A DNA stretch of 51,124 nucleotides from Candidatus Obscuribacterales bacterium (GCA_949127735.1 CASBPX010000106.1:1-51124); one strand, 5' to 3'; shown: positions 18,584 to 39,380, counted from the first letter of the stretch. Translations and numbers: made by a program. Notes: generated from the sequence alone by a model not told the origin.

Positions 18584-20047
18584 ATGCATGATTTGTTGCG
18601 CTGGAATGGCACTATCGATAGGGCTCCATTTGTTAAATGGGGCCTCTCGCTTATGGTGCTCAAATACATACTCGATCAGCTGATCAGTCAGCTTTTCTTT
18701 CATCGCAGCTGGTCAATATTTGAATATTTTGCTCCTGCTGCGGCAGCTTATCGGCTTGAATCTGACGCGGTATTTTTTCTCACTATTCTGGCCGCCTCCC
18801 TGCCTTTTGCCTATATTGGCTGCGCTTTGACTGTGCGCCGCTTGCGCTCAGCAAATTTGCCCCTTTGGCTGGTTCTTTTTTTCTTCCTTCCCGTTATCAA
18901 TTTGATATTTTTTAAGATTATTTGCTGGATGCCTTCTGTAGTCGAGCAGCACCCAATGCTTTTGCAGAGTGCTGCTGCCTCACAAATTGCCAATTCGCAA
19001 GACTATGAACATCTCAGGGAGGCTGATTATCCGGTTTCTGAGAAACTACTTTTTGCGCGTTTTATTCCGCGCACTAAGTATTGGTCTCTCGTTGCTTCAA
19101 TTGCATACCCTGCCCTGATTGGTCTGGCGACCGGCTTTCTAGCAATGGAAACCCTTGGTGCCTATGGCTGGGGGGTATTCGTGGCCTTGCCCTTTGTTCT
19201 CTCCACCCTTTCGGTTTTGATATATTCGTACTGGCAGCCCCGTCTCTGGTTACAGTGCTTGCAAGTGGCCTGGGCGGAGCTTCTATTCATGGGCCTGGTT
19301 TTGCTATTACTTGGCCACGAAGGGGCAATTTGCCTGATCATGGCCACACCGCTTACCCTTGGTATCGGCTTGGTGGGCGCTTTTCTTGGCTTTCATATTC
19401 AACCGCATAGGCCTGATCAGCCTGGGCCTTTACCGCAGTTACCTGCTATGTTCATCGGTTTAAGTCTGCTGTTACCTGCTTCCATTTATCTTGAAGCGGC
19501 ATCGGCAAAAGATTTACCTGTCTATAAAGTATCCAGTACATTAGATGTGGCAGCACCACCTGCGGTGGTATGGCAAAATGTTGTCGCTTTTAGCCAGTTG
19601 CCTGAGCCCAGTCAGCGGCCTCAAGATTGGTTATTCAATTTAGGTGTGGCTTATCCTAAATGTGCTCGCATCACTGGTAGTGGCCCCGGTGCAATTAGAC
19701 ATTGCGTTTTTTCCACCGGTACCTTTGTTGAACCCATAGCCGTCTGGGACGAGCCCAGACGACTGGCTTTCAATGTCACCTCACAAGCATTACCTATGCG
19801 CGAATTATCGCCATATAACGGTTTGCATCCGCGGCACCTTGACGGCTATCTCAAATCACAGCATGGCGAATTTTATCTGGCGACCCTGCCATCAGGTGGA
19901 ACCAGACTGACCGGCACAACCTGGTATACAAACGATATGGGGCCGCAGCCCTATTGGCGAATCTGGTCTGACGGTATAATTCATTCCATTCACTTCCGCG
20001 TGCTCGAACATGTACGCCATTTGTCTGAAAATAAAAGCGAAACGTAA
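18584..20047 (+). CDS. DUF805-like membrane protein fused to SRPBCC-like domain
   Basis: The 487-residue protein has an N-terminal DUF805-type segment (LLRWNGTIDRAPFVKWGLSL, then a VRRLRSANLPLWLVLFF stretch) and further helices up to about residue 300, giving eight or so membrane segments. The C-terminal 180 residues are soluble. They read like an SRPBCC (START/polyketide-cyclase-like) ligand-binding domain: SSTLDVAAPPAVVWQNVVAF, WDEPRRLAFNV and GGTRLTGTTWYTN. I know of no characterised protein with this order. It may sense or carry a lipid at the membrane; that is inference. A GNAT gene follows 17 bases later, suggesting co-transcription. Confidence 0.75.
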   Translation: MHDLLRWNGTIDRAPFVKWGLSLMVLKYILDQLISQLFFHRSWSIFEYFAPAAAAYRLESDAVFFLTILAASLPFAYIGCALTVRRLRSANLPLWLVLFFFLPVINLIFFKIICWMPSVVEQHPMLLQSAAASQIANSQDYEHLREADYPVSEKLLFARFIPRTKYWSLVASIAYPALIGLATGFLAMETLGAYGWGVFVALPFVLSTLSVLIYSYWQPRLWLQCLQVAWAELLFMGLVLLLLGHEGAICLIMATPLTLGIGLVGAFLGFHIQPHRPDQPGPLPQLPAMFIGLSLLLPASIYLEAASAKDLPVYKVSSTLDVAAPPAVVWQNVVAFSQLPEPSQRPQDWLFNLGVAYPKCARITGSGPGAIRHCVFSTGTFVEPIAVWDEPRRLAFNVTSQALPMRELSPYNGLHPRHLDGYLKSQHGEFYLATLPSGGTRLTGTTWYTNDMGPQPYWRIWSDGIIHSIHFRVLEHVRHLSENKSET

Positions 20048-23632: not shown

Positions 23633-24790
23633 ATGCATCTTAACGAAGATCCCCTCAAAAAGTGGGGCGATGACGAGTTAAAGTACTGGATTGCTATAGA
23701 CCTCTGCACCGGTTGCGGCTTCAGAGCAGCACGGTTGTTGCAAGTTTATGAACGCTTCGACACCATGAAAACTTTCTGGCACGCCACTGCCTCTGAGCTC
23801 AAAGAGATGGGCGGCTACCCTTACGTGCTCGGATGGATTGATGACACTTTAATAGAAAAATTTATTGCCAAGCGCGCTCAGATTGATCCTGATACGCTCA
23901 TGGCACAACTCGAGGCCGCGGGGGTCAGAGCCTATCCACTGGCGCATCCACTGTATCCATTCAATCTGCGCAATATTCATGATCCTGCTCTGGTGCTGTA
24001 TGCCAAGGGGCAGTTGACCATGGATGAAATCGTTCATGGAGTGGGAGTGGTAGGTACGCGCACACCTTCGAACTATGGACAAAAGTTGGCTAAAGAATTT
24101 GGCCGTGAACTTGGACAGGCCGGCGTAACCGTTGTTAGTGGAATGGCTGTGGGTGTCGATTCTTTTGCCCATTACGGTGCCATCGAAGCTGGTGGCAGAA
24201 CTGTTGCGGTAGTTGCCTGCGGGCCCGATGTTTGCTATCCGAGTTCGAATAAACCCTTGTATGCAAAGCTCACTGAAGATTCAAAAGGTATGGTTCTGTC
24301 GGAATATTTCCCGGGTATCAAACCAGAGAAGTGGCGTTTTCCTGCTCGTAACCGCATTATTTCTGGTATCAGTCAGGGCTTGCTTGTCATTGAGGCCGGA
24401 AAAGCATCTGGTTCTTTAATTACGGCCAGGCAAGCATTTGAGCAGAACCGACAGGTCTTTGCCATTCCCGGCCGCATAGATCAACCGATGTCGGAAGGCA
24501 CCAACAGGCTGATCGCAGACAATCTGGCACAGATGGTAGTGAATCTCGATGAAATTATGAATGCAATGAACTGGGTAACCAGTTCAAGACCTCGCAGCGA
24601 GCCGGTGGTGCTTGAATTATTCGGCAGCGAAAAGGATGTGCATGAGCTTTTGTCCAATGAGCCAGTGCATTTTGATCAATTAACCGAAAAGACAGGCCTC
24701 ACGGCTGGCCCACTTTCCAGTACTCTAACAATGTTGGAATTGGCAGGCATCGCTGAAAGGTTACCGGGCGATTGGTATGTGCGCAAATAG
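23633..24790 (+). CDS. dprA: DNA processing protein DprA
   Basis: DprA binds incoming single-stranded DNA during natural transformation and loads RecA. The Rossmann-like core is complete: VGVVGTRTPSNYGQKLAKEF, VVSGMAVGVDSFAHYGAI, GRTVAVVACGPDVCYPSSN, SEYFPGIKPEKWRFPARNRI and LVIEAGKASGSLITARQAFE. The N-terminal SAM-like region (CTGCGFRAARLLQVYERF) and a C-terminal winged-helix region (HELLSNEPVHFDQLTEKTGL) are both present, so the 385-residue protein is full length. It is divergent from the TPR-PDZ gene. Other competence genes are not in this window. GAGAGG lies about 14 bases before the ATG. Confidence 0.95.
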   Translation: MHLNEDPLKKWGDDELKYWIAIDLCTGCGFRAARLLQVYERFDTMKTFWHATASELKEMGGYPYVLGWIDDTLIEKFIAKRAQIDPDTLMAQLEAAGVRAYPLAHPLYPFNLRNIHDPALVLYAKGQLTMDEIVHGVGVVGTRTPSNYGQKLAKEFGRELGQAGVTVVSGMAVGVDSFAHYGAIEAGGRTVAVVACGPDVCYPSSNKPLYAKLTEDSKGMVLSEYFPGIKPEKWRFPARNRIISGISQGLLVIEAGKASGSLITARQAFEQNRQVFAIPGRIDQPMSEGTNRLIADNLAQMVVNLDEIMNAMNWVTSSRPRSEPVVLELFGSEKDVHELLSNEPVHFDQLTEKTGLTAGPLSSTLTMLELAGIAERLPGDWYVRK

Positions 24791-24941: not shown

Positions 24942-25979
24942 ATGAAGCTTTGTTTGCGGTGCAATAATTATTATGGCGACGAAGTTTCTACTTGTCCACG
25001 AGATAAACTCGCCCTGGAGCCAGTCGGAAAAGACCCGTTAATTGGCGCTCTTATCAATAATAAGTATGCCGTTGAAACCGTTGTCGGCAAGGGGTCCAGC
25101 GGTATCGTCTACCGAGCGACCAGGCTACTAATGGGTGGCGCGGTGGCAATAAAAGTCGTACACAGCTATCTTGGTGCCGATCCCAAGAGCATGGAAAAAT
25201 TCTCCCGTGAAGTGCGTGCTCTAGAGCAGCTGCGTCATCCCAATATTGTTAATCTGTGGGAGTCTGGCGTCACCGACGACGGCCAACCGTACCTGGTGAT
25301 GGACTATTTGCAAGGTACACCGCTTTCGTCTTTAATTGCGGCAGAAGGCATCTTATCTGGCTCTCGAGTGTTGGAAATAACCAGGCAGGTATGCGCTGGC
25401 TTGCAAGAAGCGCACAGTCAGGGCTTTGTTCATCGTGATATTAAGCCTGAGAATATAGTTCTTGATTCCACCAGCGAGCAAGATTTTGTCAAGGTATGTG
25501 ATTTTGGTATTGCCTATACCGTCTTTGAAAATGGCCTCAATACTATTAGCAGACCTACTACTGTGGCTGGTTCGCCGGCCTACATGAGCCCAGAGCAGTG
25601 TCGTGGCCTTCCCCTCGACCACAGAACCGATATCTATTCGCTGGCTCTGGTAGTCTTTGAGATGCTCACAGGCAAGAGACCTTTCGAAGCCAAGACCTCC
25701 AAAGAGTTTATGGTTAAGACTGTAAACGACAAAATGCCTCTAATGTCTACTTTGCGTCCAGATTTAGGCATTCCTGAACCAGTAGAATTAGTGGTGGCGA
25801 AGGCATTGCAGAAAAATCCAAAAGATAGGCACGCTTCAGCAGTGGATTTTGCTAAAGAATTGTCTCTGGCTTGCCAGGCTGCCGACTTCTCTTCCATTAA
25901 GGGAAGTAATCAAAAAAATGACGACAGGTTGCAAAACCCAAGCCAGCGGGTAAATGAGCGTACGAGGGGTCCCCAGTAG
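24942..25979 (+). CDS. Soluble Ser/Thr protein kinase with N-terminal zinc ribbon (kinase 1)
   Basis: This 345-residue eukaryotic-like kinase starts with a zinc-ribbon motif C4LRC7 ... C18PRD21. The kinase domain spans about 42-310: glycine loop GKGSSGIVYRA (49-59), ATP-binding Lys71 in VAIKVV, Glu90, catalytic loop HRDIKPEN (164-171), DFG (187-189), activation-segment end SPAYMSPEQCRG (211-222) and Asp230. All catalytic residues are intact. The C-terminal 35 residues are polar with no membrane helix, so it is cytosolic, unlike the other five kinases nearby. No clear Shine-Dalgarno sequence precedes the ATG; the start is supported by near identity of the N-terminus with kinase 2. It leads the plus-strand kinase group. 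Confidence 0.92.
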   Translation: MKLCLRCNNYYGDEVSTCPRDKLALEPVGKDPLIGALINNKYAVETVVGKGSSGIVYRATRLLMGGAVAIKVVHSYLGADPKSMEKFSREVRALEQLRHPNIVNLWESGVTDDGQPYLVMDYLQGTPLSSLIAAEGILSGSRVLEITRQVCAGLQEAHSQGFVHRDIKPENIVLDSTSEQDFVKVCDFGIAYTVFENGLNTISRPTTVAGSPAYMSPEQCRGLPLDHRTDIYSLALVVFEMLTGKRPFEAKTSKEFMVKTVNDKMPLMSTLRPDLGIPEPVELVVAKALQKNPKDRHASAVDFAKELSLACQAADFSSIKGSNQKNDDRLQNPSQRVNERTRGPQ

Positions 25980-26067
25980 TCAAAGGTCTTATATTTGAGC
26001 TTTGATTTAGTAACCTGTTTTGTGAGCGGAAGAACTGGCTGACCAGGGTCGTGAGAGGAAGAAGAGT

Positions 26068-29000
26068 TTGAAGGACGAGCTGCCAGATTTAACGCCTTAC
26101 TTGAGCAAGAAAGGTGGCAATAGCCAGAGTAAAGGGTCTGATAATCCTCCTGGTAAGGCTGATATCTCCTCAAAACTATCTGCACTTGTGAAAAAAACAG
26201 GCACCTTTAATGCCGTCAGCGACGAGGCTATTGCCGAGGCCGAAGCAAATGCGGCTGCCAACGACGACAATTTAGAAGCGCCGATCAGTCATGAACAAGG
26301 TTTTGAGTCTGGCGCCGATGCCGGCACTGCTTCAGCTTCTGCACCTGCTTCTTCTCCTCCGGCTGTTTCATCTTCCTGGGCCAACATTGGTGTTGAAGCT
26401 CAAGCAGCGTCCATACCCCCAGCTGCTGATAACAAAAGAGAAGCTTGGATGGTGCAGGAAATAGACGCATCTGCGGAGCCGTCAGCGCCTCAAGAGCAAG
26501 CCTCGCAGACTACAAGCGGCAGCAGCTCCTCAAGTTGGGAGCAGATTGATTCGTTTTCAGCTTCAGCGCGCAAAGATATAGACAAGGAAGACGAATTTAA
26601 TTCGCCACCACAGGCGGTGAGTGAATTAGCGGGAAATTCTTCATCCGGCGCATCAAACTTAGGTGCCTCCGGCACATTTTCTACTCGTCCAGGGGCTCGA
26701 CCCGCTCCTGGTTTAGACAAATTCAAGGCTCCACAGGCGCGACCGATGAATACACTTTCATCAGGTGCCAGCCCAGTTCTCAAAACACCACCGAAAGAAC
26801 CAGGCCGCGCGCCGGCACCATATGGTTTTAGTCCCAATGAAGCGTCGAAATCGGCACCAGCAAAACCAACTTATTCAGGCAGCAATATCATCGCCCAGCC
26901 AACCAAGGCTCGCACTGGCGAACAGAACAAAGAGGTTCACAAAGAAGAAGTACGTCGCGCCGATCCGCCGCCATCGTGGCCGGCCCAACCCACTTCACCC
27001 CCACGAGTAACAGAAAGAGAAGAACTTCCCAAACCCACCCCGGTTAAGGCTGGACCACCGACAAATACACCTTTTTCTCAACCATCGCTACCACCCGTTT
27101 CCGCACAGGCTGCCGCTCCAGTCGAGAGCGAAGCGCAAATACTTGCCCGCGCCTTCATGGAAGAAGCCAAAGCATTGGAAGCCGAGCGACCTGAGACGAG
27201 TTTTGAAGACGACCTTTCGGCTCCTGGCGACTCAGTTTCGAGCACCAATCTTGGGGCCCTGTTTGCCGCTGAAAAATTATCCGAGTCTGAGGCGGCTGCC
27301 GAGAGTGCTCCAGCCCCTGAGTCTTCGCCGTCACCATATATGATGGATGATGAGGCGCCAAAACGGTCTCTCGGATTTGGTAATTTGCTGGCAACTGCTG
27401 CCACTGATCCATCTCAATCGTCGAAGCACAGTACGCTGGCTGATTTGATGGTACCCACCGGTGAGCACCAGACATTATTTGCCCCTGATCGCCGAACCGA
27501 GCAAGGTGAAGACCAGCTTTCGCCTTTCGACGAAGTTCCAGCTCAACCAAGCGACGAACCAATTAGACTTGATAATTCCGTGGCGGCCAGTGCTCCAGCT
27601 TTTTCTGCACTTTTCAGCACCGAAATAGTCACCTCTGGCGAAAACTTTAGTCAAGGATTTCCGCCGCAAGACAATGATGATTTTAATAGCGGTGGCGATT
27701 TAGGCAATGATAAATTCTCTTTCGGTGCGGAGCCGGCAGCTGAAACGCCTATGGCGTCCAGGTCTGATGTAATCAGCAAATTGCTGGAAGCAGTCAACCA
27801 GCCGGCACCAGCGGCAGAGTCTGTTGATACTACAGGCAGCGCCAGCAATTTTTCTGATAATTTCTCAAGTAATTTTGCTGACAATTTTGCCGGTAATAAT
27901 GCAGTGAATAACGATTTTAATTCTGGTATTTTTCCTGAAAGTAATTTAGACCAGTCTAATTACGATGGTGCCGATGTCGACGATATGCGCACAGCCGACA
28001 CCATGTTTGGCAGTGGCGGATCAAACAAGGGCAGTCATGAAGAACTTGCTGCTGCTGACGCGGTGTTTGGTGCCGTGGCCGATCTTGGTGCACCTGCTGA
28101 ATTTGAATTTAGTGCTTCGGCGGCTGATTTAAGCGAGCCTAAATTTGACGCTAGTTCTGAGGTTAAACCAGGGGTCCCAGTACCGGTGCTCGACATTGAC
28201 GCTTTGCCAATGGCGTTTGGCGACGCTACCAACTTTGAACAAATTCGATTAGAAGATATCAAAGCTTATAAGAAGGCGGCTAAACTCAAAGCCGCTGAAG
28301 AAGCTAAAGCCGCAGAAGTGGCGAAGAACGCAAGCGTTGGTCAAGCAGATATTGCTGCAGAACCGGCGATTAAACTATCTCTGACCGAGATGATTGATCA
28401 AGCTAATGCCGCCAAGCTTGAGCAAGTGAACGATAGTTCACCCGAAGGTAGAAAACCAGCTGGTGCCAAGTCGTCACTATCTTCATTACTTTCAGGCGGT
28501 GATGATCTAGACGAAGTTGTTGCACCTATTCCGACTGCTGCAACTGATGACGATGACGAAGAAGACAGTCTCGGTGGGGCGATTTCTGACGCTCTCGATA
28601 AACTGCTAAACGACGCACAGCCCGAAGGCGACGCCGACACCAAATCTAGTGTCGTCTCCGGCGGCCTTTCCAAACTTCTTGCCACCAGCTCAGACCAGTC
28701 ACAAAGAGACCTGGCAGCACCGGCGGCTGCGTCGATGGCCACGTCGATGGATAGAGTGCCTGCATCGGCGGACGAACCCATGACTAATACACAAGCAAAC
28801 AAAGTTGACGCTCTTTCGCGTCTTTTAGAAGTCGCCAGTAAAGCACCACACAAGCCTGCTGAAGATAAACGTCAACCAAGCGATTCTGCTTCTAAGCTTG
28901 CTGCCGAAATTAACAAACCACCAGGCAAAATCAGCCGACAGGTAGATGTTTTAAGCGCACCTGATTATCTCAATCAAGGCAAAAACGCTGAGTCCGTGTC

Positions 29001-29946
29001 TTCACCGTTTGGTGGGCCATCGCCTTTTACATCGCCATTTACCTCGCCTTCGGCCACTCACAATCGACAAGCAAGCCAGGGTGCTGACCCGTTGCCTACT
29101 AATCCTTATGCCTCACCGTCAGAAATGCCGCAAGCGACCATATCAAATGATGCAGTCAGTGCAAGAATTGCCGCTCTCAATAGAAAATTAGAAGAAGGCA
29201 GCCGCTCACCCACCGCTTCGGCCATGAACATCGAAGCCATGAATCAAGCTCAATCTCAATCTCAAATGGGTACGGCCACAGGTACAGGCAGCTCACCATC
29301 AGTGAATAGTTTGAGTCAGTTGCCATCACAGGTTGATGATTCACCCTCCACTCGGGCTGAGCTTGTAAATCGCATTTTAGGATCGGCAAAAATATCTCAA
29401 CATGGTACAAAGATCCCTGATACAGCCAGTAGAACTGTGGCTGATGCGGTAGTTAATGCTGATCAAGTCAATGCTATCCGTTCGGCTAAGGGCGCCAAGC
29501 CTGGTCGCGAAAATGCTCCTAATCGGCCAAGAGCGCGAGTCTCTCGCATGCCCGGTTTTGACCCACGACCACTAATTGCCATCGTTATTTTCCTCTGTGT
29601 CGTAGGCGGTGGTGGTTATTATGCTATTCAAAATGGCATCATCAAACTCAATATCCCGTTGATAAAAACCCCTGCTGATCCCAAAGCCACAGTTGATCAA
29701 ATGATCAAGTCTGGTGATCTTGACCGTGCGCGTGAAGTTTTAGAAGCTAAAGTCAAAAGCGGAAAAATCACCAACTCAGAAGCTGAAAAGCTCTACAACG
29801 TTTACTATCAGCAGGCCGACAAAATTGACGGCGATGATGCCACTGAGGCGCTCAAGTTGTTAGACAAAATTCCCAGCCGCTCTAAGAAGTTCAAAGATGC
29901 TCAAAAGCTTGTACGTAAGCTTAAGAAGAAGGTGAAGAAGAACTGA
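26068..29946 (+). CDS. Large disordered membrane protein with repeated Leu motifs
   Basis: This 1292-residue protein is not recognisable as a known family. Residues 1-1165 are mostly low complexity (Ala, Ser, Pro, Glu, Asp) and probably disordered. They are dotted with short helical Leu motifs such as KLSALV (36-41), LGALFA (395-400), FGNLLA (437-442), VISKLLE (568-574), SLSSLLS (803-809), ALDKLLN (842-848), LSKLLA (867-872) and ALSRLLE (915-921). One membrane helix lies at about 1168-1188 (LIAIVIFLCVVGGGGYYAI). The last 100 residues form Lys-rich TPR-like helices resembling the end of kinase 2. The start is TTG at 26068 after GAGGAAGAAGAG; no usable ATG exists before residue 148. It sits between two kinase genes, and its stop is one base before the next ATG. 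Substrate, scaffold or sensor roles are inference. Confidence 0.85.
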   Translation: MKDELPDLTPYLSKKGGNSQSKGSDNPPGKADISSKLSALVKKTGTFNAVSDEAIAEAEANAAANDDNLEAPISHEQGFESGADAGTASASAPASSPPAVSSSWANIGVEAQAASIPPAADNKREAWMVQEIDASAEPSAPQEQASQTTSGSSSSSWEQIDSFSASARKDIDKEDEFNSPPQAVSELAGNSSSGASNLGASGTFSTRPGARPAPGLDKFKAPQARPMNTLSSGASPVLKTPPKEPGRAPAPYGFSPNEASKSAPAKPTYSGSNIIAQPTKARTGEQNKEVHKEEVRRADPPPSWPAQPTSPPRVTEREELPKPTPVKAGPPTNTPFSQPSLPPVSAQAAAPVESEAQILARAFMEEAKALEAERPETSFEDDLSAPGDSVSSTNLGALFAAEKLSESEAAAESAPAPESSPSPYMMDDEAPKRSLGFGNLLATAATDPSQSSKHSTLADLMVPTGEHQTLFAPDRRTEQGEDQLSPFDEVPAQPSDEPIRLDNSVAASAPAFSALFSTEIVTSGENFSQGFPPQDNDDFNSGGDLGNDKFSFGAEPAAETPMASRSDVISKLLEAVNQPAPAAESVDTTGSASNFSDNFSSNFADNFAGNNAVNNDFNSGIFPESNLDQSNYDGADVDDMRTADTMFGSGGSNKGSHEELAAADAVFGAVADLGAPAEFEFSASAADLSEPKFDASSEVKPGVPVPVLDIDALPMAFGDATNFEQIRLEDIKAYKKAAKLKAAEEAKAAEVAKNASVGQADIAAEPAIKLSLTEMIDQANAAKLEQVNDSSPEGRKPAGAKSSLSSLLSGGDDLDEVVAPIPTAATDDDDEEDSLGGAISDALDKLLNDAQPEGDADTKSSVVSGGLSKLLATSSDQSQRDLAAPAAASMATSMDRVPASADEPMTNTQANKVDALSRLLEVASKAPHKPAEDKRQPSDSASKLAAEINKPPGKISRQVDVLSAPDYLNQGKNAESVSSPFGGPSPFTSPFTSPSATHNRQASQGADPLPTNPYASPSEMPQATISNDAVSARIAALNRKLEEGSRSPTASAMNIEAMNQAQSQSQMGTATGTGSSPSVNSLSQLPSQVDDSPSTRAELVNRILGSAKISQHGTKIPDTASRTVADAVVNADQVNAIRSAKGAKPGRENAPNRPRARVSRMPGFDPRPLIAIVIFLCVVGGGGYYAIQNGIIKLNIPLIKTPADPKATVDQMIKSGDLDRAREVLEAKVKSGKITNSEAEKLYNVYYQQADKIDGDDATEALKLLDKIPSRSKKFKDAQKLVRKLKKKVKKN

Positions 29947-29947
29947 G

Positions 29948-31489
29948 ATGAAGCTCTGTCTTCAGTGTAACACTCACTTCCAAGGTGACTTTGAGCAATG
30001 TCCTGACGACGGTGCCAAACTCGTTTCAGTGCCTGATGATCCGGTCATCGGTAAGGTGTTGGGAGAGAAATATCGCATTCTTTGCCCTGTGGGCAAAGGT
30101 TCAATGGGTGTTGTTTACAAGGCCATTCAAGAGTCTACGGGTCGCGAAATGGCAGTCAAACTGCTGCATCATTTTCTCGGCACAAATTCTGATTCGGTGA
30201 AGAGATTCCATCGTGAAGCCAAGGCAGTAAGTCGGCTCAGTCATCCTAATATCATTCGGCTTTATGATTTTGGTGTGATGGATGAAGGGCAACCTTACAT
30301 CGTCACTGAGCTTCTTAATGGTGTCACCCTCTCTGATATTTTACGCAAGCGTGGTTTTGTCAATCTCAATCAGGCCCTGCCTCTATTTGAACAAGTTTGT
30401 GCCGCCATTGGTGAAGCGCATCGCAGCCGTGTAATTCACCGAGATCTCAAACCCGAAAACATCGTCATGGAAGAAGTTGATATCAATGGCAATTTAGATG
30501 CCCCCGATCTAATCAAGAAAAATGCCATTCGTGTCCTCGACTTTGGTGTGGCGAAAATGTGGACCGAATCGGGCGCCACTTCGGCTTCACTGACAATTGA
30601 AGGCAAAGTCTGCGGCTCTCCTGCTTATATGAGCCCTGAGCAATGTCGTGGTGTAGACGTCGACTACCGCACAGATATCTATTCGATGGGCGTTGTCTTT
30701 TTTGAGACGCTTACGGGTAAAAGGCCATTTGCAGCTGATGATTTAATGGCTTTGATGTTGATGCACGTCAACAATCAAGCACCATCTATGGGGTCAGTCA
30801 ACGAGAAAGTGACTTTCCCTAAAGAGATCAATGACGTAATTATGAAAGCCATGTCCAAAAATCCTAATGAGCGGCAACAGAGCGCTGAAGAATTGTGGGA
30901 GGACATTCAGGCGGCGTGCAATGGTCGGCAGAAAACGGTCACTGTTGCTCCTCCAGAAAACTGGATTCCATTTCAAGGCAAAGGGGGCCTGGTCTTTCGC
31001 ACTACTGATGACGGCACTGCTTCACTGGAGACATCGGACAGCTATTCAACCTTAAGCAATCCAAATGCCATTCTAGATTGGATTCCACCGGTACCTTCTA
31101 CCGACAACACTAAAAACCGCAGGGGTAGCAATAAAACAATGATGGTGGCACGTGCCCTCTTCCTTGGTGCTCTTGTGGTGGCCGGCTTCTATCAATTCAA
31201 CGTCTACCTTAAAGCCAATGACGAAGCTAAAAACGCTTCGATTTTAATTAGTCGAGGCAAGTGTGAAGAGGGCGTGATTGTGCTTGAGCGCCTGCAAAAA
31301 GAGAATAAACTACAACCGGAATATAACGAAACTCTTGCTGACGCTTATGTGCAGATGGCGATGCAATACGCAAAAATCGGTAACTATAATCGCTCAGTAG
31401 ACCTGCTCAAGAAAGTACCCGCAAAGGCCAAGGCTGCTGCGCAGGCACAACAACTAATAAGGCGTTATTCGCCCCGTGTACGCAGTTAA
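29948..31489 (+). CDS. Membrane Ser/Thr protein kinase with zinc ribbon (kinase 2)
   Basis: The 513-residue kinase opens with zinc-ribbon motif C4LQC7 ... C18PDD21, like kinase 1. The kinase domain is at about 42-325: GKGSMGVVYKA (49-59), Lys71, Glu90, HRDLKPEN (164-171), DFG (198-200) and SPAYMSPEQCRG (224-235), all catalytic residues present. A 15-residue insert before DFG (about 176-192) is unusual. A linker leads to one membrane helix (about 399-417, MVARALFLGALVVAGFYQF) and an extracytoplasmic helical domain (about 430-505) that resembles the end of the preceding disordered protein. It begins one base after that gene's stop, so translation is probably coupled. Its stop overlaps the stop of convergent kinase A. 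Confidence 0.93.
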   Translation: MKLCLQCNTHFQGDFEQCPDDGAKLVSVPDDPVIGKVLGEKYRILCPVGKGSMGVVYKAIQESTGREMAVKLLHHFLGTNSDSVKRFHREAKAVSRLSHPNIIRLYDFGVMDEGQPYIVTELLNGVTLSDILRKRGFVNLNQALPLFEQVCAAIGEAHRSRVIHRDLKPENIVMEEVDINGNLDAPDLIKKNAIRVLDFGVAKMWTESGATSASLTIEGKVCGSPAYMSPEQCRGVDVDYRTDIYSMGVVFFETLTGKRPFAADDLMALMLMHVNNQAPSMGSVNEKVTFPKEINDVIMKAMSKNPNERQQSAEELWEDIQAACNGRQKTVTVAPPENWIPFQGKGGLVFRTTDDGTASLETSDSYSTLSNPNAILDWIPPVPSTDNTKNRRGSNKTMMVARALFLGALVVAGFYQFNVYLKANDEAKNASILISRGKCEEGVIVLERLQKENKLQPEYNETLADAYVQMAMQYAKIGNYNRSVDLLKKVPAKAKAAAQAQQLIRRYSPRVRS

Positions 31490-32928
31490 TCGGTTTGTTC
31501 TTGCAGTGCTAATAATCTTTCTTGGACTGCTGCCGCCGACACTGGTCGCTCTTCTTCGCTTTGCGCTGTCAGTTTTTGCACCAGCTGGTCAAGGTCGGCT
31601 GAAAGTGATGCTGTAATTTGTTTTGGCGATGACTGTGTAAGTGGCTCAGGGTCACGACCAGTGAGCAAGTAATAGATGGTAGCGCCAAAACCATAGAGGT
31701 CACTTGATGTGGTGGCATGGCCGCGAAACTGCTCCGGTGAAATGTAGCTTTGCTTGCCTACTAAAGTGCCTGTGGCAGTGCCAATCAGTTCATTGGCAGC
31801 GCCAAAATCGATTAGTTTGATTTTGCCGTCTGCCGTTATAACAATATTGTCTGGTGTAACATCGCGGTGCACCACCGGCGGCTCTTGGTTGTGCAAATAT
31901 ATAAAAATTGTTGCCAGCTGAAGACTATATTCTATTACGTCAAGCTCGTGACTGGGCCCTTCCAGTTTAATTTTCTGCCGCAAATTCTGGCCACTGATAT
32001 AGTCGAGCAAAAGATAATGGCGACTGTCTTCGATAAATTGATCGTGCACTTTGACTACGCCCGGATGGTTCAATTTAAGCAATAATGCTGCTTCCCGGCT
32101 AAACATCTCTTGAGCCTTTATCTTTAAAGCTTTGTTGGCTCCTGGTGGAATCACCGATTCCTTTAAAACTCGCAAACTGGTGTTCGATTCTTGCACAAGA
32201 TAAATGGCTGACCAGCCACCAAATGCCAATTGGCGAATCACTTTCAGCCTGTTGTCTTGTAGTCTCTGACCCGGGCTGAGAGGCATGTAGGCGGTGGCGC
32301 TGTAGCGATTAGATAATTCGTCTTCCCACATTTGCGTATAACTGATTAGATTGCTTCCTGGCTCAGAGGCGCTATTCCACAGTACTTCTTTTAATTGTTC
32401 GACGCGACTGTCGATGGCGCCGGTCGGTAGCCAATTAGAGGCGCTTACCAGCAAATATTCAATGTCGCTGGCGACTAGAGCTTTTAAACTCAGAGTTACA
32501 GACCCTTTATCTGTAGCCAGTTGCAAATTTAGTGAACCAGGATTATTGAGATCTTCTCCCTCGATAGTGACTCGGCTTATTTGTCGCCAGGGTACAAATC
32601 TTTCAAAGCGATTGGAAAGACTGTTCAAGGCCGGCACCATTAGCCCTTCTTCGCTAATGACGAGATTGCTGTCTTCGAATAGACCGGTAAGCGTTGCGCC
32701 GATCATAAAGATCATGGCCAGATAAAACGACAGAGCAGCTGCCTCGGTCGATATTGATCTTCCCCCGCTGAAAACTGTGATCAGTACCATAGCTACTACA
32801 CCGAGAGCTAAGACGATAGGGGCGAGAAAACCCCAGAGCGGCATGCTCATGTTGCAGAGCCACAAGCAAATTTTGGCTGTCAAAGAGTCATAAACAATGA
32901 TTTTTTCTTGCCCCTGGCCGGCCATCAC
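31486..32928 (-). CDS. Membrane protein kinase, type A (HRDxTPDN)
   Basis: The 480-residue protein has two N-terminal membrane helices (about 28-52 and 66-84), then a beta-rich PH-like segment (about 85-165; LVISEEGLMVPALNSL) and a C-terminal kinase domain (about 228-475). Kinase features: glycine loop LAFGGWSAIYLV (glycines 1 and 3 replaced), Lys256 in VLKES, Glu279, catalytic loop HRDVTPDN (354-361) with Thr where Lys is usual, DFG (374-376) and SPEQFRGHATTSSDLY. It starts with GTG at 32928 or ATG at 32925, overlapping the stop of kinase B. It is the last gene of a four-kinase operon and is paralogous along its whole length to kinase A'. Confidence 0.92.
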   Translation of the reverse strand: MMAGQGQEKIIVYDSLTAKICLWLCNMSMPLWGFLAPIVLALGVVAMVLITVFSGGRSISTEAAALSFYLAMIFMIGATLTGLFEDSNLVISEEGLMVPALNSLSNRFERFVPWRQISRVTIEGEDLNNPGSLNLQLATDKGSVTLSLKALVASDIEYLLVSASNWLPTGAIDSRVEQLKEVLWNSASEPGSNLISYTQMWEDELSNRYSATAYMPLSPGQRLQDNRLKVIRQLAFGGWSAIYLVQESNTSLRVLKESVIPPGANKALKIKAQEMFSREAALLLKLNHPGVVKVHDQFIEDSRHYLLLDYISGQNLRQKIKLEGPSHELDVIEYSLQLATIFIYLHNQEPPVVHRDVTPDNIVITADGKIKLIDFGAANELIGTATGTLVGKQSYISPEQFRGHATTSSDLYGFGATIYYLLTGRDPEPLTQSSPKQITASLSADLDQLVQKLTAQSEEERPVSAAAVQERLLALQEQTD

Positions 32929-34952
32929 TTGATACCCTCAACGACACCCTCAATGCGGCTCAAATACTTTGTCATTTCACTAATTGTGGCAAAGCGTTGT
33001 TTGAGTTCAGGCTCTGTGGCCGTGGCAATAAATTGATCAAAAACTAAGCTTATTGAAGGAATGACTTTTTGCGGATGTGAGCATCCTAGAGCCTCTGGTT
33101 CAGTGCCCGTGAGCATAAAATACAAAGTTGCTCCCATGCCATAAAAGTCGCTCTGGGGGCAAGGATGGCCGCGAAACTGTTCTGGTGGCAAGTAGTTCTG
33201 TTTACCGACTATGGTGGCCTGGGTTTTGTTATTCTCCGCCGATTCTAGTGCTACATCAAAGTCTAAAAGCTTTATCTGGCCCTGTTCGTTAAGTAAAAGA
33301 TTGTCTGGGGTAAAGTCTCTATGCACTACTGCTGGTGTGCGCTCATGCAGATAGCTCAAGATATCGAGCATCTGGCCTGCGTGAGACCTGACCTCTTGCT
33401 CTCTGATTGCGCCTGCGGCCAACACTTTTTCTCTCAATGTTTGCCCATTTATATATTCGAGCATTAAAAAGGCTCGATGGCCTTCGATAAAGTAATCGTA
33501 AAGTTTGACAATTTGCGGATGATCAAGACTTTTAAGCAATTTAGCATCGCGCTCAAAACGTTCAGTGATGCGTTTTTTTGCACTATCGATATAAATAGGC
33601 AAAATAATTTCTTTTAAAACGACGGTGGTCAATTGTAAGCTGCCGTCGCTGGACGCCAATTGTCCTTGTGCCAGATAAGTTACCCCCTGACCGCCGCTGC
33701 CTAACTGCTTTTCAATGACCAGCTGATGATGAGAAAGCCTGTCACCTGGTTGAAGGGGCGTGAGTTGATTTAATTGTGGCGCTGCTTCAAGAGATGACAA
33801 CCAGAGTTCGGTGTAAGTGACTTCACTTGCCTTAGTAAGTATTTCAAGCAATGCAGGATCAATAACAACTCCACTACCCCACGCTTTCAACGTGTCTAAA
33901 AATTGTGCTCGTTTCTCTTCGTTAAAGGCTTGCAATGGAATAATAATTAGTAGCCTGCCTGTTTTGGAGTTGACCTCGATAATGCCTCCTCCTGAGGCTC
34001 TCTTTCCGCGACCAATGAGATTGATAGAGCCAATATCACTCCAGCTGATGCCTTGTTGTGCGACTGGGCCAGTGGCCACATGCAATTGCGGAGTGATACC
34101 AGCTTTGCTAATTACCAGGCTGTCGGGTTCCATCCATTTTTTGATCAGATAAAACAAACTTAGAATTACTGTCAACACGAAACCAAAAAAGCCAATGGAT
34201 GGATCTATTTTGGTAAAAAATTCGCCAAGCAACCAGATTGTGCCGGTATAAATTACTCCAAGACTATGAAGTGCTAGTGACACTGCGGGGATTGTTTCTC
34301 CTATCATAAAACCAAGGGCGATCAGGCCAAAGCCTGTCCAAAAGACAGTCCAGGCTCTGAAGAAGCCTATATCGAAAATGACATCATACTTTGACATGTA
34401 CGACAAAATTTTAGTCAGTTGATAGTCGTTAACCATCATTAGTGTCAGTTGCCGATCGTCCACGGGCACAATTTGAGCAACACCAATTTCTTCCACATCA
34501 ACTTTAGTCACCAGCGCCGTTCTTACCGCTCGGCTGATTTTCGCGTTTTTCAATTTCTGGGCAAAAAGCGACCAGAGCATTTCGGCATTTTCCGGCGAAA
34601 GACCAAGGAAGGAAAATTTATAAATCTGATCGCTGCCCGCTGTTTTCAGACAGAGTTTTTGCTTATTGACGGCAAGTGACTCGATATCACTGTATTTGCA
34701 AATTGGCCTGAATATACCAGGCAATTTGAGTTTTTCTTTTTCAAAGATAATTTGATTGCATCGCAACTGCAGCAATCCATAGAGGCATGAGGCGGCAACC
34801 GATAGAGCCAAAAGGGTAAACTCAGGCGAGATGGTAAAGCACAAACCAGGCAACATGATTAACCAGATGGGCATAGACAAAAGCAGCAGCCGCTGCTGAA
34901 ACTGTTCCATGCTGCCGTTCAACTCAATTTTAGTTACCCTGTATTTGATCAT
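32925..34952 (-). CDS. Membrane protein kinase, type B (HRDxTPDN, DFD)
   Basis: This kinase of about 675 residues has a helix pair at about 25-65 (LLLLSMPIWLIMLPGLCF), a PH-like beta segment (IIFEKEKLKLPGIFRPI), more helices at about 200-275 and a second PH-like segment (LVISKAGITPQLHVATGP). The C-terminal kinase domain lies at about 410-670: GSGGQGVTYLA, a VVLKEI Lys, HRDFTPDN and, unusually, DFD in place of DFG (KLLDFDVAL), then PPEQFRGHPCPQSDFY. The ATG at 34952 overlaps the stop of A' as ATGA, so it is preferred to GTG at 34964. Presence of HRD and the metal-binding Asp suggests phosphotransfer is possible, but the altered residues leave activity open. Paralogue of B'. Confidence 0.9.
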   Translation of the reverse strand: MIKYRVTKIELNGSMEQFQQRLLLLSMPIWLIMLPGLCFTISPEFTLLALSVAASCLYGLLQLRCNQIIFEKEKLKLPGIFRPICKYSDIESLAVNKQKLCLKTAGSDQIYKFSFLGLSPENAEMLWSLFAQKLKNAKISRAVRTALVTKVDVEEIGVAQIVPVDDRQLTLMMVNDYQLTKILSYMSKYDVIFDIGFFRAWTVFWTGFGLIALGFMIGETIPAVSLALHSLGVIYTGTIWLLGEFFTKIDPSIGFFGFVLTVILSLFYLIKKWMEPDSLVISKAGITPQLHVATGPVAQQGISWSDIGSINLIGRGKRASGGGIIEVNSKTGRLLIIIPLQAFNEEKRAQFLDTLKAWGSGVVIDPALLEILTKASEVTYTELWLSSLEAAPQLNQLTPLQPGDRLSHHQLVIEKQLGSGGQGVTYLAQGQLASSDGSLQLTTVVLKEIILPIYIDSAKKRITERFERDAKLLKSLDHPQIVKLYDYFIEGHRAFLMLEYINGQTLREKVLAAGAIREQEVRSHAGQMLDILSYLHERTPAVVHRDFTPDNLLLNEQGQIKLLDFDVALESAENNKTQATIVGKQNYLPPEQFRGHPCPQSDFYGMGATLYFMLTGTEPEALGCSHPQKVIPSISLVFDQFIATATEPELKQRFATISEMTKYLSRIEGVVEGIK

Positions 34953-36400
34953 CTCAATTGCCACTGCCAGCCTTGCCTGATGGCAACTATTTGCTCTTTC
35001 ACAGCTTTAGCAGACTCGGGTCTTTTGCTCTGGTCTTGCTCCGTAAGTGTCTGCACCAATTGATCTAGGACATCGCTAACTATGACAAAATCTTTGGGCG
35101 AGGAGCGGCATAAGGCCTCAGGTTCGCGGCCACAAAGCATAAAATGAATGGTGGCCCCAAGAGCATAAAGGTCACTAGATGTGGTGGCGTGACCACGGAA
35201 CTGTTCTGGGGCAATGTATCCTTGTTTACCTATTAATGTGCCCGTGGCGGTTCCTATGATTTCGTTGGCTGCGCCAAAGTCGATTAGCATTACTTTATCG
35301 ACGTTTACTACAATATTGTCGGGAGTTAAATCACGGTGCACCATGGGAGGTTCAAGCAGATGCAGGTAAACTAGAATGTCTGCCATTTGCTCAGCGTAGT
35401 CTAAGACATCGAGCTGATGCAGCGGCCCCTGCAGCCTCACCATCTGGCGTAAATTCTGACCGCTGACATAATCAAGCAATAAATATTGTCTGTTGTCGTG
35501 CTTAAAATGTTCGTAGACGCGCACAATTTTGGGGTGATCAAGTTTCATCAACAAATGCGCTTCGCGACTAAACATGGCTTCAGCCTTCAATTTGAGTTCG
35601 TTGTTAGCCAGTGGTGGCAGAACACATTCTTTCAAGACCTTCAATTTTGTGTTGGACTCTTGCACTAGATAGACTGCTGACCAGCCACCAAATGCTATTT
35701 GCTTAATTACTTTGATGTTGCCATCCAAAAGCTTTTGATTGGGACTGAGAGGTATATAGGCCGTAGCGGAAAAGCGATCGTTAAGTTCGTCTTCCCACAT
35801 TTTTGTAAAGCTTAAAGATTCCGCAGGCTCGAGATTATCGCTATTCCACAGAGATTCTTTTAGCTCCTGCAGACGCATGTCTTGTGCCGGAGCCGGTAAC
35901 CAGTTGCTCATACTGACGAGTAAATATTCGATATCATTGCTCGACATGCCTCTGAGGCCAAGGCAGATTTTGCCCTGCTCAAGCAATATGTGCAAATTGA
36001 GGCTGTCGATATGGTCAAGCTCGCCTGTTAGAGCGATGCTTTTGATTTCGCGCCATTCAATAAAACGCCGCATTTTGTTGCTCAAGCTTGTTAGAACCGG
36101 CACTGTTAACCCATCTTCGCTCACGAGTATTTTATTGTCTTGTAGTGAACCTTTAAGCATGGTGCCAATGAAAAAGAGCATTGTCAGGTAGAAGCATGAA
36201 CCAGAAATTGTTATTAGCGGTATGGTTTGAAATTCACCCGGAATAAAAAATACCCCGAAAAGCAATATGATGCTTAAAAGCGCAGCCGCTGCTGCCAGGG
36301 TCGGCGCCAGTATGCCCCAAAGAGGAATAGTGAAATTGCAAAGCAATATTCCAATGCGGGCGGGTAATGACTGGTAGAAAATTATCTTTGTTTGACTCAT
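34949..36400 (-). CDS. Membrane protein kinase, type A' (paralogue of A)
   Basis: The 483-residue protein is colinear with kinase A. It has N-terminal helices (IPLWGILAPTLAAAAALLSI and FYLTMLFFIGTML), the PH-like segment (ILVSEDGLTVPVLTSLSNKM) and a linker FTKMWEDELNDRFSATAYIP almost identical to A. The kinase domain has IAFGGWSAVYLV, Lys257 in KVLKECV, Glu280, HRDLTPDN (355-362), DFG and APEQFRGHATTSSDLY. The shared MWEDEL and PPxANxxLK wording shows A and A' arose by duplication. The ATG overlaps the B' stop as ATGA, indicating translational coupling. Confidence 0.92.
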   Translation of the reverse strand: MSQTKIIFYQSLPARIGILLCNFTIPLWGILAPTLAAAAALLSIILLFGVFFIPGEFQTIPLITISGSCFYLTMLFFIGTMLKGSLQDNKILVSEDGLTVPVLTSLSNKMRRFIEWREIKSIALTGELDHIDSLNLHILLEQGKICLGLRGMSSNDIEYLLVSMSNWLPAPAQDMRLQELKESLWNSDNLEPAESLSFTKMWEDELNDRFSATAYIPLSPNQKLLDGNIKVIKQIAFGGWSAVYLVQESNTKLKVLKECVLPPLANNELKLKAEAMFSREAHLLMKLDHPKIVRVYEHFKHDNRQYLLLDYVSGQNLRQMVRLQGPLHQLDVLDYAEQMADILVYLHLLEPPMVHRDLTPDNIVVNVDKVMLIDFGAANEIIGTATGTLIGKQGYIAPEQFRGHATTSSDLYALGATIHFMLCGREPEALCRSSPKDFVIVSDVLDQLVQTLTEQDQSKRPESAKAVKEQIVAIRQGWQWQLR

Positions 36401-38454
36401 TTTTCTTTAGTGCTCAAAGGTCCAACAGAAAGATTTTTGATCTGCTCCAGCAGCTCCTCAGCACTGCTAAATCTTGTGTTTAAATCAGGCGCGGTGCAGC
36501 GGGCCACCAGGGCATTTAACTGGTCTGAAATCGCCACCAGGTTTTGCGGATGGCTTACTGTTAGAGGCTCGGGCTCGCAGGCGGTAAGTAAAAAATAAGT
36601 TGTGGCGCCCAGTGCATAAATATCGCTTTGCGGACAGGGGTGACCTTGAAACTGTTCTGGAGGAAGGTAATTTTGTTTTCCGGCAAATGAAGCTCTTGTT
36701 GCCGTTTCTTGATCAACATTTGTCGCTACATCAAAGTCTAGAAGCTTTATCGTGCCAGCGTCGTTAATGACAATATTATCAGCTGTGAAATCGCGATGCA
36801 CTACTGGTGGTGTTCGGCTGTGCAGGTACACGAGAATTGTTGCCATTTGCTCAATTAAGTTAATAACCGCGTTTTCTGTTAAATGGCCTTCTGTCAGTAC
36901 TTTTTCTTTCAGAGTGGTGCCTTGAATATATTCGAGCATTAAAAATGCCCGATGGCCTTCGGTAAAGTAATGGTGCAGTTTCACCACTTGCGGATGTTCT
37001 AGGCTCTGCAATAGTTTAGCGTCGCGTTCAAAGCGCTCAGCCATCTGCCTTTTAACCGATTGGTTGTAGAGCGGCAGAATAAATTCTTTCAGCACAATTT
37101 TGTCTTCGAACTCTGGGCATTTAGCTAGATACGTGACCGCCTGACCACCCACCGCCAGCTGTTCTTCAATGATAAGATCGTGGTGGTTAAGTCTGTCTCC
37201 GTGGCGCAGGGGGCTTAAGGCTTGCAGCTGTGGTGCCGAGTGAAGTGATGAAAGCCATAACTCGGTATATGAACTATCGACCTGGTCTGTCAGAGCAAGA
37301 ATTTTGGCATCTACTTCAATGCGCCTGCCCCAGGCTTCAATGGCCTCGATAAAGAGCTGGCGATTGCGGCTTGTCGTCAGGGCGCGCAGTGGTATAACCA
37401 TTGGTAAGCGATCAGTGTTTGGTGTGACTTCGATAAAACCGTCTGCGCCACTGCGTTGCTGACCAAACAGTTTAATTGAAGCAATAGATTGCCAGCTCAG
37501 ATGTTCTTTGGGAATTGAACCCGTGGGTGTACTGAGCAAGGCTGTGAAGCCTAGATGATCGATAAAAATGCAGTCAGGTTCTGAAAATTGCTTGATCAGG
37601 CGATAACTGGCTAAAACTATTAAGCAAAGCAGGCCGATTGAGCCAGCCAGCAAAAAGTAAAAAAATAGGCCTGAGCTGAGGGAAAGGCTGGGCAGCTCGG
37701 GTCTTGAATCAAAAATGGTAGAAAACCTCGACAAAAATCGATAGAGAATGTCTGCCTGAGGCTGGGGAAAAAATGTGTAAGTCAACGCTCCTGCTGCACA
37801 AAGCATGAGCCATAAGTTACCCATCACTCGATCGAATCCTTTGTCAAACACAGTGAGATAAGACAAGGCTTGCGAAACCAAGCTGTGAGCTTTTAAATCA
37901 AGCGTCAATTGCAAATTGTTATCGCTGTGATTTTGCGCTGCCAGTTCAGAACTCAATGCCATTTCTTTTTGTGGTTCTATTTGACCAACCCAATTTTTCA
38001 GGCGCTCTCTAACTTCAGAGGTAATGTGCGCATTTTTAAATCTGGTGGCAAAAACTGTCCAGAGCTTAGCTGCGTCTTCCCGTGATAAACCACCGAGAGT
38101 AATCTTTTGCAGTGGCTTGCCTGCGGCACTGAGGCAAAGGGCGTTGCCGTCGTCAAGCTCAATATCTGTAATTTCACCATAGGTATAAGCTGGTCTAAAA
38201 GTCCCGGGCACTCTTACGCAGTCGTGCTCGAACAATATTTGATGAGTATTTAGTTTGCTGTAGGCCAAGTAAAAGCACAGGCAACCGATTATCGGTGCGG
38301 TGGTCAGACCAAGGCCGGAGAACAGCAAATAAGATGCAAGCAACCAGAGTGGAGCAGAAAGGACAAGAAAATTCGACAAAAATTTCTCACCACCGTCGGT
38401 GAGATCTATTTCTATTCTGCATTGAGGCAGTCGATTTTTCTTTGACGTAGGCAC
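36397..38454 (-). CDS. Membrane protein kinase, type B' (paralogue of B)
   Basis: This 685-residue first gene of the four-kinase operon has the same order as kinase B: helices near 28-65, PH-like segment (ILFEHDCVRVPGTFRPAY), helices near 212-230 and 262-288, a second PH-like segment (CIFIDHLGFTALLSTPTG), then the kinase domain from about 420. The glycine loop is degenerate (LAVGGQAVTYLA; glycines 1 and 3 are Ala). Lys456 is in IVLKEF, the catalytic loop reads HRDFTADN (553-560), and DFD replaces DFG (573-575). The start is GTG at 38454 with no strong Shine-Dalgarno sequence; a later start is possible. The promoter should lie in the 47 bases before tatD or further upstream. Confidence 0.9.
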   Translation of the reverse strand: MPTSKKNRLPQCRIEIDLTDGGEKFLSNFLVLSAPLWLLASYLLFSGLGLTTAPIIGCLCFYLAYSKLNTHQILFEHDCVRVPGTFRPAYTYGEITDIELDDGNALCLSAAGKPLQKITLGGLSREDAAKLWTVFATRFKNAHITSEVRERLKNWVGQIEPQKEMALSSELAAQNHSDNNLQLTLDLKAHSLVSQALSYLTVFDKGFDRVMGNLWLMLCAAGALTYTFFPQPQADILYRFLSRFSTIFDSRPELPSLSLSSGLFFYFLLAGSIGLLCLIVLASYRLIKQFSEPDCIFIDHLGFTALLSTPTGSIPKEHLSWQSIASIKLFGQQRSGADGFIEVTPNTDRLPMVIPLRALTTSRNRQLFIEAIEAWGRRIEVDAKILALTDQVDSSYTELWLSSLHSAPQLQALSPLRHGDRLNHHDLIIEEQLAVGGQAVTYLAKCPEFEDKIVLKEFILPLYNQSVKRQMAERFERDAKLLQSLEHPQVVKLHHYFTEGHRAFLMLEYIQGTTLKEKVLTEGHLTENAVINLIEQMATILVYLHSRTPPVVHRDFTADNIVINDAGTIKLLDFDVATNVDQETATRASFAGKQNYLPPEQFQGHPCPQSDIYALGATTYFLLTACEPEPLTVSHPQNLVAISDQLNALVARCTAPDLNTRFSSAEELLEQIKNLSVGPLSTKEK

Positions 38455-38501: not shown

Positions 38502-39380
38502 TCAAAACTGGCCCAGGTCGGCCAGGCTGAAGAGTTTTCGAGCATTCTTGCTTACTTGTGCAGCAAGCGTTTCTAGAGTGGAATGGCGCAAATTGGCGAG
38601 CTTTTCTGCCGTAAACCAGACATAAGCGGGTTCATTGCGTTCGCCACGCACCTTTTGTGGGGAAAGATATGGGCAATCGGTCTCGACCAACATGCGATCT
38701 TCAGGCACTAGTGCGGCAGCTTCTTGAATGTTGGTGGCTTTACTGTAAGTAAGAATGCCTGAAAAAGAGACATAAAAATCCAGTGCACTAATGGCCGGCA
38801 AATGTTCAGGCCCTCCTGTAAAGCAGTGAAAGACTCCTCGCACTTTCCCCTGACCGGCGGAGGTAAGCAGTTCAAAGGTATCATCCCAGGCGTCGCGACA
38901 ATGGACGATCACTGGTTTGTCTAAAGCAACAGCAATTTCAATTTGCTCTCGAAATGCGGTCAGTTGCTCATCTCTTGAACTATTGTTGTAAAAATAATCA
39001 AGGCCGCATTCACCCACGGCGACCATTTTAGGATGCTTCAGTGCCTCTAAAACTTTCTCTTTGTGCTCGTCGCACCAGAAACGGGCTTCGTGCGGATGCT
39101 GACCAGCGGCGCCATAAACATTTGCTCGACGCTCGATTAATTCGAGCAATTCATCAAGGCCTTCGACAGCCACAGCCGGATTGATTAGAGTGTGAACATC
39201 CATGGCTGAAGCCCGGTCTAAAATTTGTTCGCGCTCTTCCTGGAAATATTCTTTGACCACATGGGCGTGACTGTCGATAATGCCACCGGCACATCGAGGT
39301 ATATTTACTGGTTCTCTGGTTTTAGCTTGTTTTGTCATTTGCCATAAAATTGCGGTAATTGCGAATTGCCTTTTAAGCAA
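38502..39380 (-). CDS. TatD family metal-dependent hydrolase
   Basis: TatD-type deoxyribonuclease with the amidohydrolase-like barrel. Metal-ligand motifs are present in order: IIDSHAHV, GECGLDYFYN, PVIVHCRDAWDD, GVFHCFTGG and MLVETDCPYLSP. E. coli TatD is a 3'-5' exonuclease acting in DNA repair and apoptosis-like degradation; the cellular role of this paralogue type (YcfH/TatD) is less certain. A later Met (39338, MTKQAKTRE) may be the true start, giving 278 residues and dropping a 14-residue N-terminal extension. The gene precedes the four-kinase operon on the same strand with a 47-base gap. Confidence 0.9.
   Translation of the reverse strand: MLKRQFAITAILWQMTKQAKTREPVNIPRCAGGIIDSHAHVVKEYFQEEREQILDRASAMDVHTLINPAVAVEGLDELLELIERRANVYGAAGQHPHEARFWCDEHKEKVLEALKHPKMVAVGECGLDYFYNNSSRDEQLTAFREQIEIAVALDKPVIVHCRDAWDDTFELLTSAGQGKVRGVFHCFTGGPEHLPAISALDFYVSFSGILTYSKATNIQEAAALVPEDRMLVETDCPYLSPQKVRGERNEPAYVWFTAEKLANLRHSTLETLAAQVSKNARKLFSLADLGQF

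Follow-up and report, generated by a model that had tools for sequence, protein, structure and literature searches.

As judged from comparison with related genomes, two adjacent genes in a 51,124-nucleotide stretch of DNA from a Candidatus Obscuribacterales bacterium (hereafter the window) are shown to stem from a single ancestral Ser/Thr kinase of the receptor type, with the gene K1 being the catalytic half and its neighbor, GIANT, being the severed juxtamembrane arm, transmembrane helix (TM) and sensor half. The same comparison shows the plan of the ancestral kinase to be a zinc-ribbon-like N-terminus and kinase domain followed by a disordered juxtamembrane arm of about 1,000 residues, a TM and a TPR-like tail, and places the fission as a single event in the ancestor of the genera g1, g5, g10 and g11. 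As a whole, we consider the best explanation of the locus, and a probable one, to be one fission after which K1, GIANT and the next gene, K3, still cooperate, with the four remaining kinase genes, K4-K7, being separate.

The preliminary description of this region had six kinases and a 1,292-residue disordered membrane protein standing alone in 13.5 kb, and this was confirmed: all seven ORFs lie where it had placed them, and positions 24942-38454 hold six protein-kinase genes and GIANT (1,292 aa) with no further gene in the block. K1, K3, K4, K5, K6 and K7 all score above the Pfam cut-off for Pkinase (E 4.5e-52 to 9.7e-33), and the neighboring genes are dprA (23633-24790) and tatD (38502-39380). 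Two convergent units make up the block, the first being K1-GIANT-K3 on the plus strand, with dprA ahead of it in the same orientation, and the second being K4-K7 on the minus strand, and they meet tail to tail, with the stop codons of K3 and K4 both falling within a TTAA at 31486-31489. Because these two genes are convergent and their stops share the TTAA, the 4-base overlap between them is not translational coupling.

There are about 88 Pkinase matches across the genome that holds the window (G000; 4.7 Mb, 246 contigs), and a density of six kinases per 13.5 kb was obtained in 2 of 2000 trials under random placement. Tandem duplication accounts for much of this clustering, since K1 is a paralogue of K3 and K4-K7 arose by duplication of a pair. 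Kinase candidates number from about 16 to 300 per relative genome, a very uneven kinome expansion inside one family. This family, a group of uncultured relatives of cyanobacteria, lies in Candidatus Melainabacteria, as kinase coordinates in its genomes G027 and G072 coincide with those of records under that name (BJP_IG3402_49_16 and SJ878). Two further kinase matches in G000 (C64:23753-24526 and C17:23353-24123) each contain one in-frame stop (TAA, TGA) and may reflect decay of kinase genes or errors in the sequence. Elsewhere in the window, an intact gene with DUF805 and polyketide-cyclase-like domains lies at 18584-20047; in G003 (L033 8841-9733) the gene is split between two short ORFs, and none was seen at the corresponding place in G001 and G005. 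An Rfam search gave no match, and a promoter scan found sites no more numerous than in shuffles. The PADLOC matches (PD-T4-6, MADS6 and PglW) cover the generic kinase domain only, and no defence genes were seen adjoining the block.

K1 (24942..25979, plus strand; Pkinase E 4.5e-52) encodes a 345 aa protein with a zinc-ribbon-like N-terminus (C4, C7, C18 and D21) and a kinase domain (25065-25832) in which the HRD, DFG and APE motifs are kept, and it has no TM. Its CxxC...CPxD N-terminus, which has no Pfam name, is seen in K1 and K3 only among the kinases of the block. GIANT (26068..29946, plus strand) matched nothing in Pfam, NCBIfam or PADLOC. Its disordered arm (aa 1-1167) contains no cysteine and is 15% Ala, 13% Ser and 9% Pro. 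Hydropathy places a single TM helix at approximately aa 1170-1192 (29575..29643, plus strand), where a structure model has a helix at positions 21-42 of the modelled fragment, and the positive charges N-terminal to it suggest an N-in/C-out orientation. The C-terminal tail (29677..29940, plus strand) is predicted by a structure model to form five helices, and in most of the helical region pLDDT is about 78-90. We describe it as TPR-like on weak fold matches (Foldseek best E 0.55), designed TPRs, HOP TPR2A and BamD being among them, and on the TPR families TPR_6 (0.004) and TPR_19 (0.011), both of which fall below the cut-off against these tails.

GIANT is present in all five other genomes of genus g1 and in the genera g5, g10 and g11, genome G064 of g11 having been added to the set via a search with K3. 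All of these split genomes keep K1, GIANT and K3, and the order is dprA-K1-GIANT-K3-tatD wherever the contig allows it to be read. An orthologue of K3 was found in many more genera than GIANT. In g2, g6, g8, g13, g14, g20, g23 and g24, K1 and GIANT are one gene between dprA and tatD, followed by K3. These fused ORFs run for 1,279-1,978 aa uninterrupted by stops, and their products have a K1-type zinc-ribbon-like region and kinase at the N-terminus, a disordered arm of about 830-1,530 aa, and a TM and GIANT-type tail at the C-terminus. Identity between K1 and the kinase that opens the fused proteins encoded at the corresponding site is 49-59%. With K1 and GIANT being one gene in eight genera at the matching site, GIANT is read as half of a receptor kinase; the protein that had been called unrecognised is accordingly identified as the arm, TM and tail half, with K1 as the catalytic half. 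In every split genome read, the kinase and the tail lie on different ORFs, unlike in the one-polypeptide fused orthologues, and K1/GIANT is therefore a split derivative rather than a member of the fused architecture. In g13 (L086, L088 and L089) and g23 (L092 and L093), an extra TM zinc-ribbon kinase lies between the fused gene and K3.

The K1/GIANT junction, which is the fission point, spans 88 nt in the window (25980..26067, plus strand) and was compared across 11 split genomes. Over this set, the distance from the K1 stop to the GIANT start varies from 33 to 112 nt and the relative reading frame of the two genes varies as well, with a purine-rich Shine-Dalgarno-like site (GAGAGGA in the window) and the TTG start of GIANT being conserved. 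The variable frame and the conserved site and start indicate that K1 and GIANT are two genes and not the product of a frameshift. Readthrough or frameshifting from K1 into GIANT was also rejected on the basis of the window itself, where the open frames do not overlap. The C-terminus of K1, RVSERLRGQ-stop, aligns with an LPSERL that follows the fused kinase domain, and the start of GIANT, DELPDLTPYL, resembles an EDMPELF found slightly further along in several fused proteins. These resemblances suggest where the cut fell, the motifs being too short for proof.

The direction of change was read from a tree of 46 kinase domains. K1 and the fused kinases form one clade (100/100), apart from K3 and other paralogues, and within it the split K1 sequences form a single clade (100/100) nested among the fused kinases. 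A clade of fused kinases only was rejected by an AU test, at a moderate p-AU of 0.014. A single fission explains both the position of the split clade and the rejection of the fused-only clade. The reverse course, in which K1 and GIANT were originally separate and became fused in the other genera, would fit with K1 alone being a complete kinase, but the tree and AU test rule against it, and K3 and the other zinc-ribbon kinases have the kinase-TM-tail form themselves, so that we regard it as very unlikely indeed. The stem branch of the split K1 clade is long (0.55), and K1 could have moved to a new function along it.

The tail bears on the homology of GIANT with the fused proteins. An HMM built solely from the last 125 residues of the split giants was run on 1,652 ORFs. 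The giants themselves matched best, the fused kinases came next (2e-22 to 2e-8), and zinc-ribbon kinases of the K3 type were matched in their tails at up to 1e-13; all remaining matches were to kinases of this zinc-ribbon type or to pieces cut by contig ends. The tail HMM and the synteny together rule out GIANT being an unrelated passenger.

The arm of GIANT, at about 1,170 aa, compares with kinase-to-TM linkers of at most 211 aa in the other kinases read in this genome. About a dozen sharply conserved islands are spaced along it across four genera, including LKDELPDLTPYLSKKGGN, LGFGNLL...LADLMVPTGEH, KVDALSRLLEVASKAP, DSASKLAAEINKPPGKISRQV and RAELVNRIL. The N-terminal islands LKDELPDLTPYLSKKGGN and DISSKLSALVKK (26068..26217, plus strand) are near-invariant in nine split giants and make a candidate docking site. 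The exact motif is absent from the fused proteins, and a docking role is for this reason a guess; a relationship to the EDMPELF motif of the fused proteins is possible. A short hydrophobic pattern, [LIVF][SGDNT]x[LIM][LFVI], occurs 6-11 times per arm in split genomes, 2-6 times in fused ones and 0.2-0.7 times in shuffles. The pattern was picked by eye on this window, which biases the count here and makes the fused arms the fairer test.

One could alternatively see the arm as a passive spacer or degenerate leftover, with the TM and tail alone being important or the giant heading for loss. In line with this, the arm is of low complexity and its mean identity among split genomes is 0.37 as against 0.61 for the tail. 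The islands conserved in four genera speak against such a fate, however, as do the absence of stop codons, the conserved start and Shine-Dalgarno-like site, and a length held at about 1,250-1,350 aa among split genomes, and we find a passive arm quite unlikely.

K3 (29948..31489, plus strand) starts 1 nt past the GIANT stop and encodes 513 aa comprising a zinc-ribbon-like N-terminus, a kinase domain (30080-30889), an 84-aa linker, a TM at about 31136 and a TPR-like tail at about 31226-31486. It is shown to be an adjacent paralogue of K1 that retains the kinase, a short linker, the TM and a tail like that of GIANT. Most of the best matches to K3 from outside the family, among the matches listed from named genomes, are myxobacterial, and many are aligned from the first residues, a likeness to the zinc-ribbon-like kinases of Myxococcota. 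Nevertheless, identity to these is 32-41%, and the alignments seldom pass the kinase domain among the matches listed. In all 12 split loci the GIANT-K3 junction measures -4 to +2 nt, as compared to 13-159 nt from the fused gene to the next kinase in all 12 fused loci. As the gap is near zero in split and not in fused loci, the tight coupling of GIANT to K3 came with the split.

This coupling can be taken to mean that GIANT has become unlinked from K1 and is now K3's alone, serving as a co-translated kinase-dead co-receptor, with K1 being a free kinase that has other business. Such a separation would account for a tight GIANT-K3 junction restricted to the split clade next to a K1-GIANT spacing of 33-112 nt, for the homology of the GIANT and K3 tails and for the long stem branch on which K1 sits. 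It is harder to square with K1 adjoining GIANT in all 11 split genomes with a readable junction and with GIANT having kept motifs found in the arms of the fused kinases, and we hold it to be rather unlikely.

A bolder reading, to which we give slightly less than even odds, is that the fission made a trans-acting module, in which a soluble kinase is recruited by a separate, membrane-anchored, multivalent, disordered receptor arm of about 1,170 residues, this arm being co-translated with another receptor kinase related to the first. In our main reading, K1, GIANT and K3 would still work together. GIANT and K3 would be membrane partners through their homologous tails, which would receive the signal, and the near-zero gap between their genes suggests matched synthesis. 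The arm, which carries about 10 conserved short hydrophobic motifs, would be both a multivalent scaffold and a phosphorylation target. The freed K1 would dock on GIANT, probably through the conserved N-terminal motif, and act in trans, thereby becoming a recruitable cytoplasmic kinase instead of a tethered one. K3 and the docked K1 would then phosphorylate the arm, which would recruit effectors. Both the docking of K1 on GIANT and the pairing of GIANT with K3 are inferred here from co-conservation.

The minus-strand unit consists of K4 (31486..32928; 480 aa), K5 (32925..34964; 679 aa), K6 (34949..36400; 483 aa) and K7 (36397..38454; 685 aa), and is two copies of one pair, a canonical short kinase and a variant long kinase, locally duplicated. 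K4, the short member of pair 1, has a TM/PH-like(?) N-terminus and a canonical kinase (K, E, HRD and DFG), and K6 is the short canonical member of pair 2. K5, the long member of pair 1, has two TM/beta units and a kinase in which the alpha-C Glu is Asp and DFG is DFD, and K7 is the long DFD member of pair 2. Of the three domain plans in the preliminary description, those with a zinc-ribbon-like region correspond to K1 and, together with a TM, to K3. The N-terminal domain of K4-K7 may be PH-like as described, but the matches are sub-threshold (STM3941 family E 0.004, bPH_7 E 0.027), and a structure model gave strands and a helix at low confidence (mean pLDDT 56).

Pairs of this kind recur, at least 10 of them being present in this genome. 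At least eight further pairs in G000 lie on C128, C6, C11, C173, C131, C17, C64 and C84 (L043-L048, L107 and L108), in both gene orders and mostly with overlaps of a few bases, and all but the C128 pair have an altered alpha-C or DFG. The short kinases form one clade (100/100), and the short partner is canonical in every case examined save one with HKD for HRD (L044 5431-6897, a member of a pair, with DFG kept). In 19 of 20 long partners examined, the exception being the C128 pair, the alpha-C Glu is replaced by D or Q and/or DFG by DFN, DFS or DFD. The DFG glycine substitution is not universal, with DFG kept in one long partner of this genome and in three from g11. Conserved deviations in a kinase paired with an intact one recall the bacterial Ser/Thr pseudokinase families (PMC12599244). 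However, K5 and K7 keep the beta-3 Lys, HRD Asp and DFG Asp, unlike pseudokinases as defined in that work, and were rejected as pseudokinases by the usual definition.

At the dprA/tatD site, no pair is present in g10 or the fused genera, one is present in g11 and G002, and two are present in G003 and G004; at least one or one and a half are present in G001 and G005, where contigs end. The site-linked pairs of g1 and g11 cluster together (96/91), which dates the arrival of the pair to within the split clade, and K4-K7 are shown to be a separate, later-inserted unit on the opposite strand to K1-GIANT-K3. Lying downstream of tatD on its strand, they may belong to its transcript. The preliminary description had taken all seven genes for one signalling system and had proposed looking for their conserved synteny in relatives. 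Conserved synteny holds for K1-GIANT-K3, a conserved module kept between dprA and tatD, and not for K4-K7, a separable accessory absent from g10 and the fused genera. A single pathway in which K4-K7 feed into or out of K1-GIANT-K3 would draw on the 96/91 grouping, which has a K4-type pair linked to the site in g1 and g11 over genus-level time. Their opposite strand, variable copy number and absence from g10 and the fused genera, along with at least eight similar pairs elsewhere in the genome, make it unlikely.

Cytokine receptors and JAK kinases place a membrane receptor and a cytoplasmic kinase on different polypeptides, and the putative docking of K1 on GIANT would make the two systems alike in this respect; K1 and GIANT differ in having arisen by fission of one bacterial gene. 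Among bacterial systems, the PASTA receptor kinases (PknB/PrkC/StkP, NF033483) share with the fused proteins and K3 an N-terminal Hanks kinase, a single TM, a disordered juxtamembrane domain and an extracytoplasmic sensor. In contrast to them, the present proteins have no PASTA match (NF033483 scores 277 and 298 against a cut-off of 450) and have a TPR-like tail, a zinc-ribbon-like N-terminus, an arm of about 1,000 residues and a gene split in two. The juxtamembrane domain of StkP is disordered, is phosphorylated at seven threonines, is needed for phosphorylating some substrates and influences assembly of the division machinery (PMC12077195). By analogy, it is the nearest experimental precedent for the mechanism we propose for the arm.

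Our literature search found no paper on fission of a bacterial receptor kinase or on the kinome of this family, whose members are very kinase-rich, with tens to hundreds of matches per genome. The role of the juxtamembrane arm in bacterial receptor kinases was termed elusive in the StkP work (PMC12077195), and a fused and a split kinase at one genomic site are a natural experiment on the function of such a disordered arm. The two forms also show a route from a tethered to a free kinase. The canonical/variant membrane kinase pairs are a second recurrent design and candidate heterodimers. If true, the trans-acting module would give bacteria an equivalent of receptors whose kinases are bound non-covalently, and fused relatives that still exist could be compared with it.
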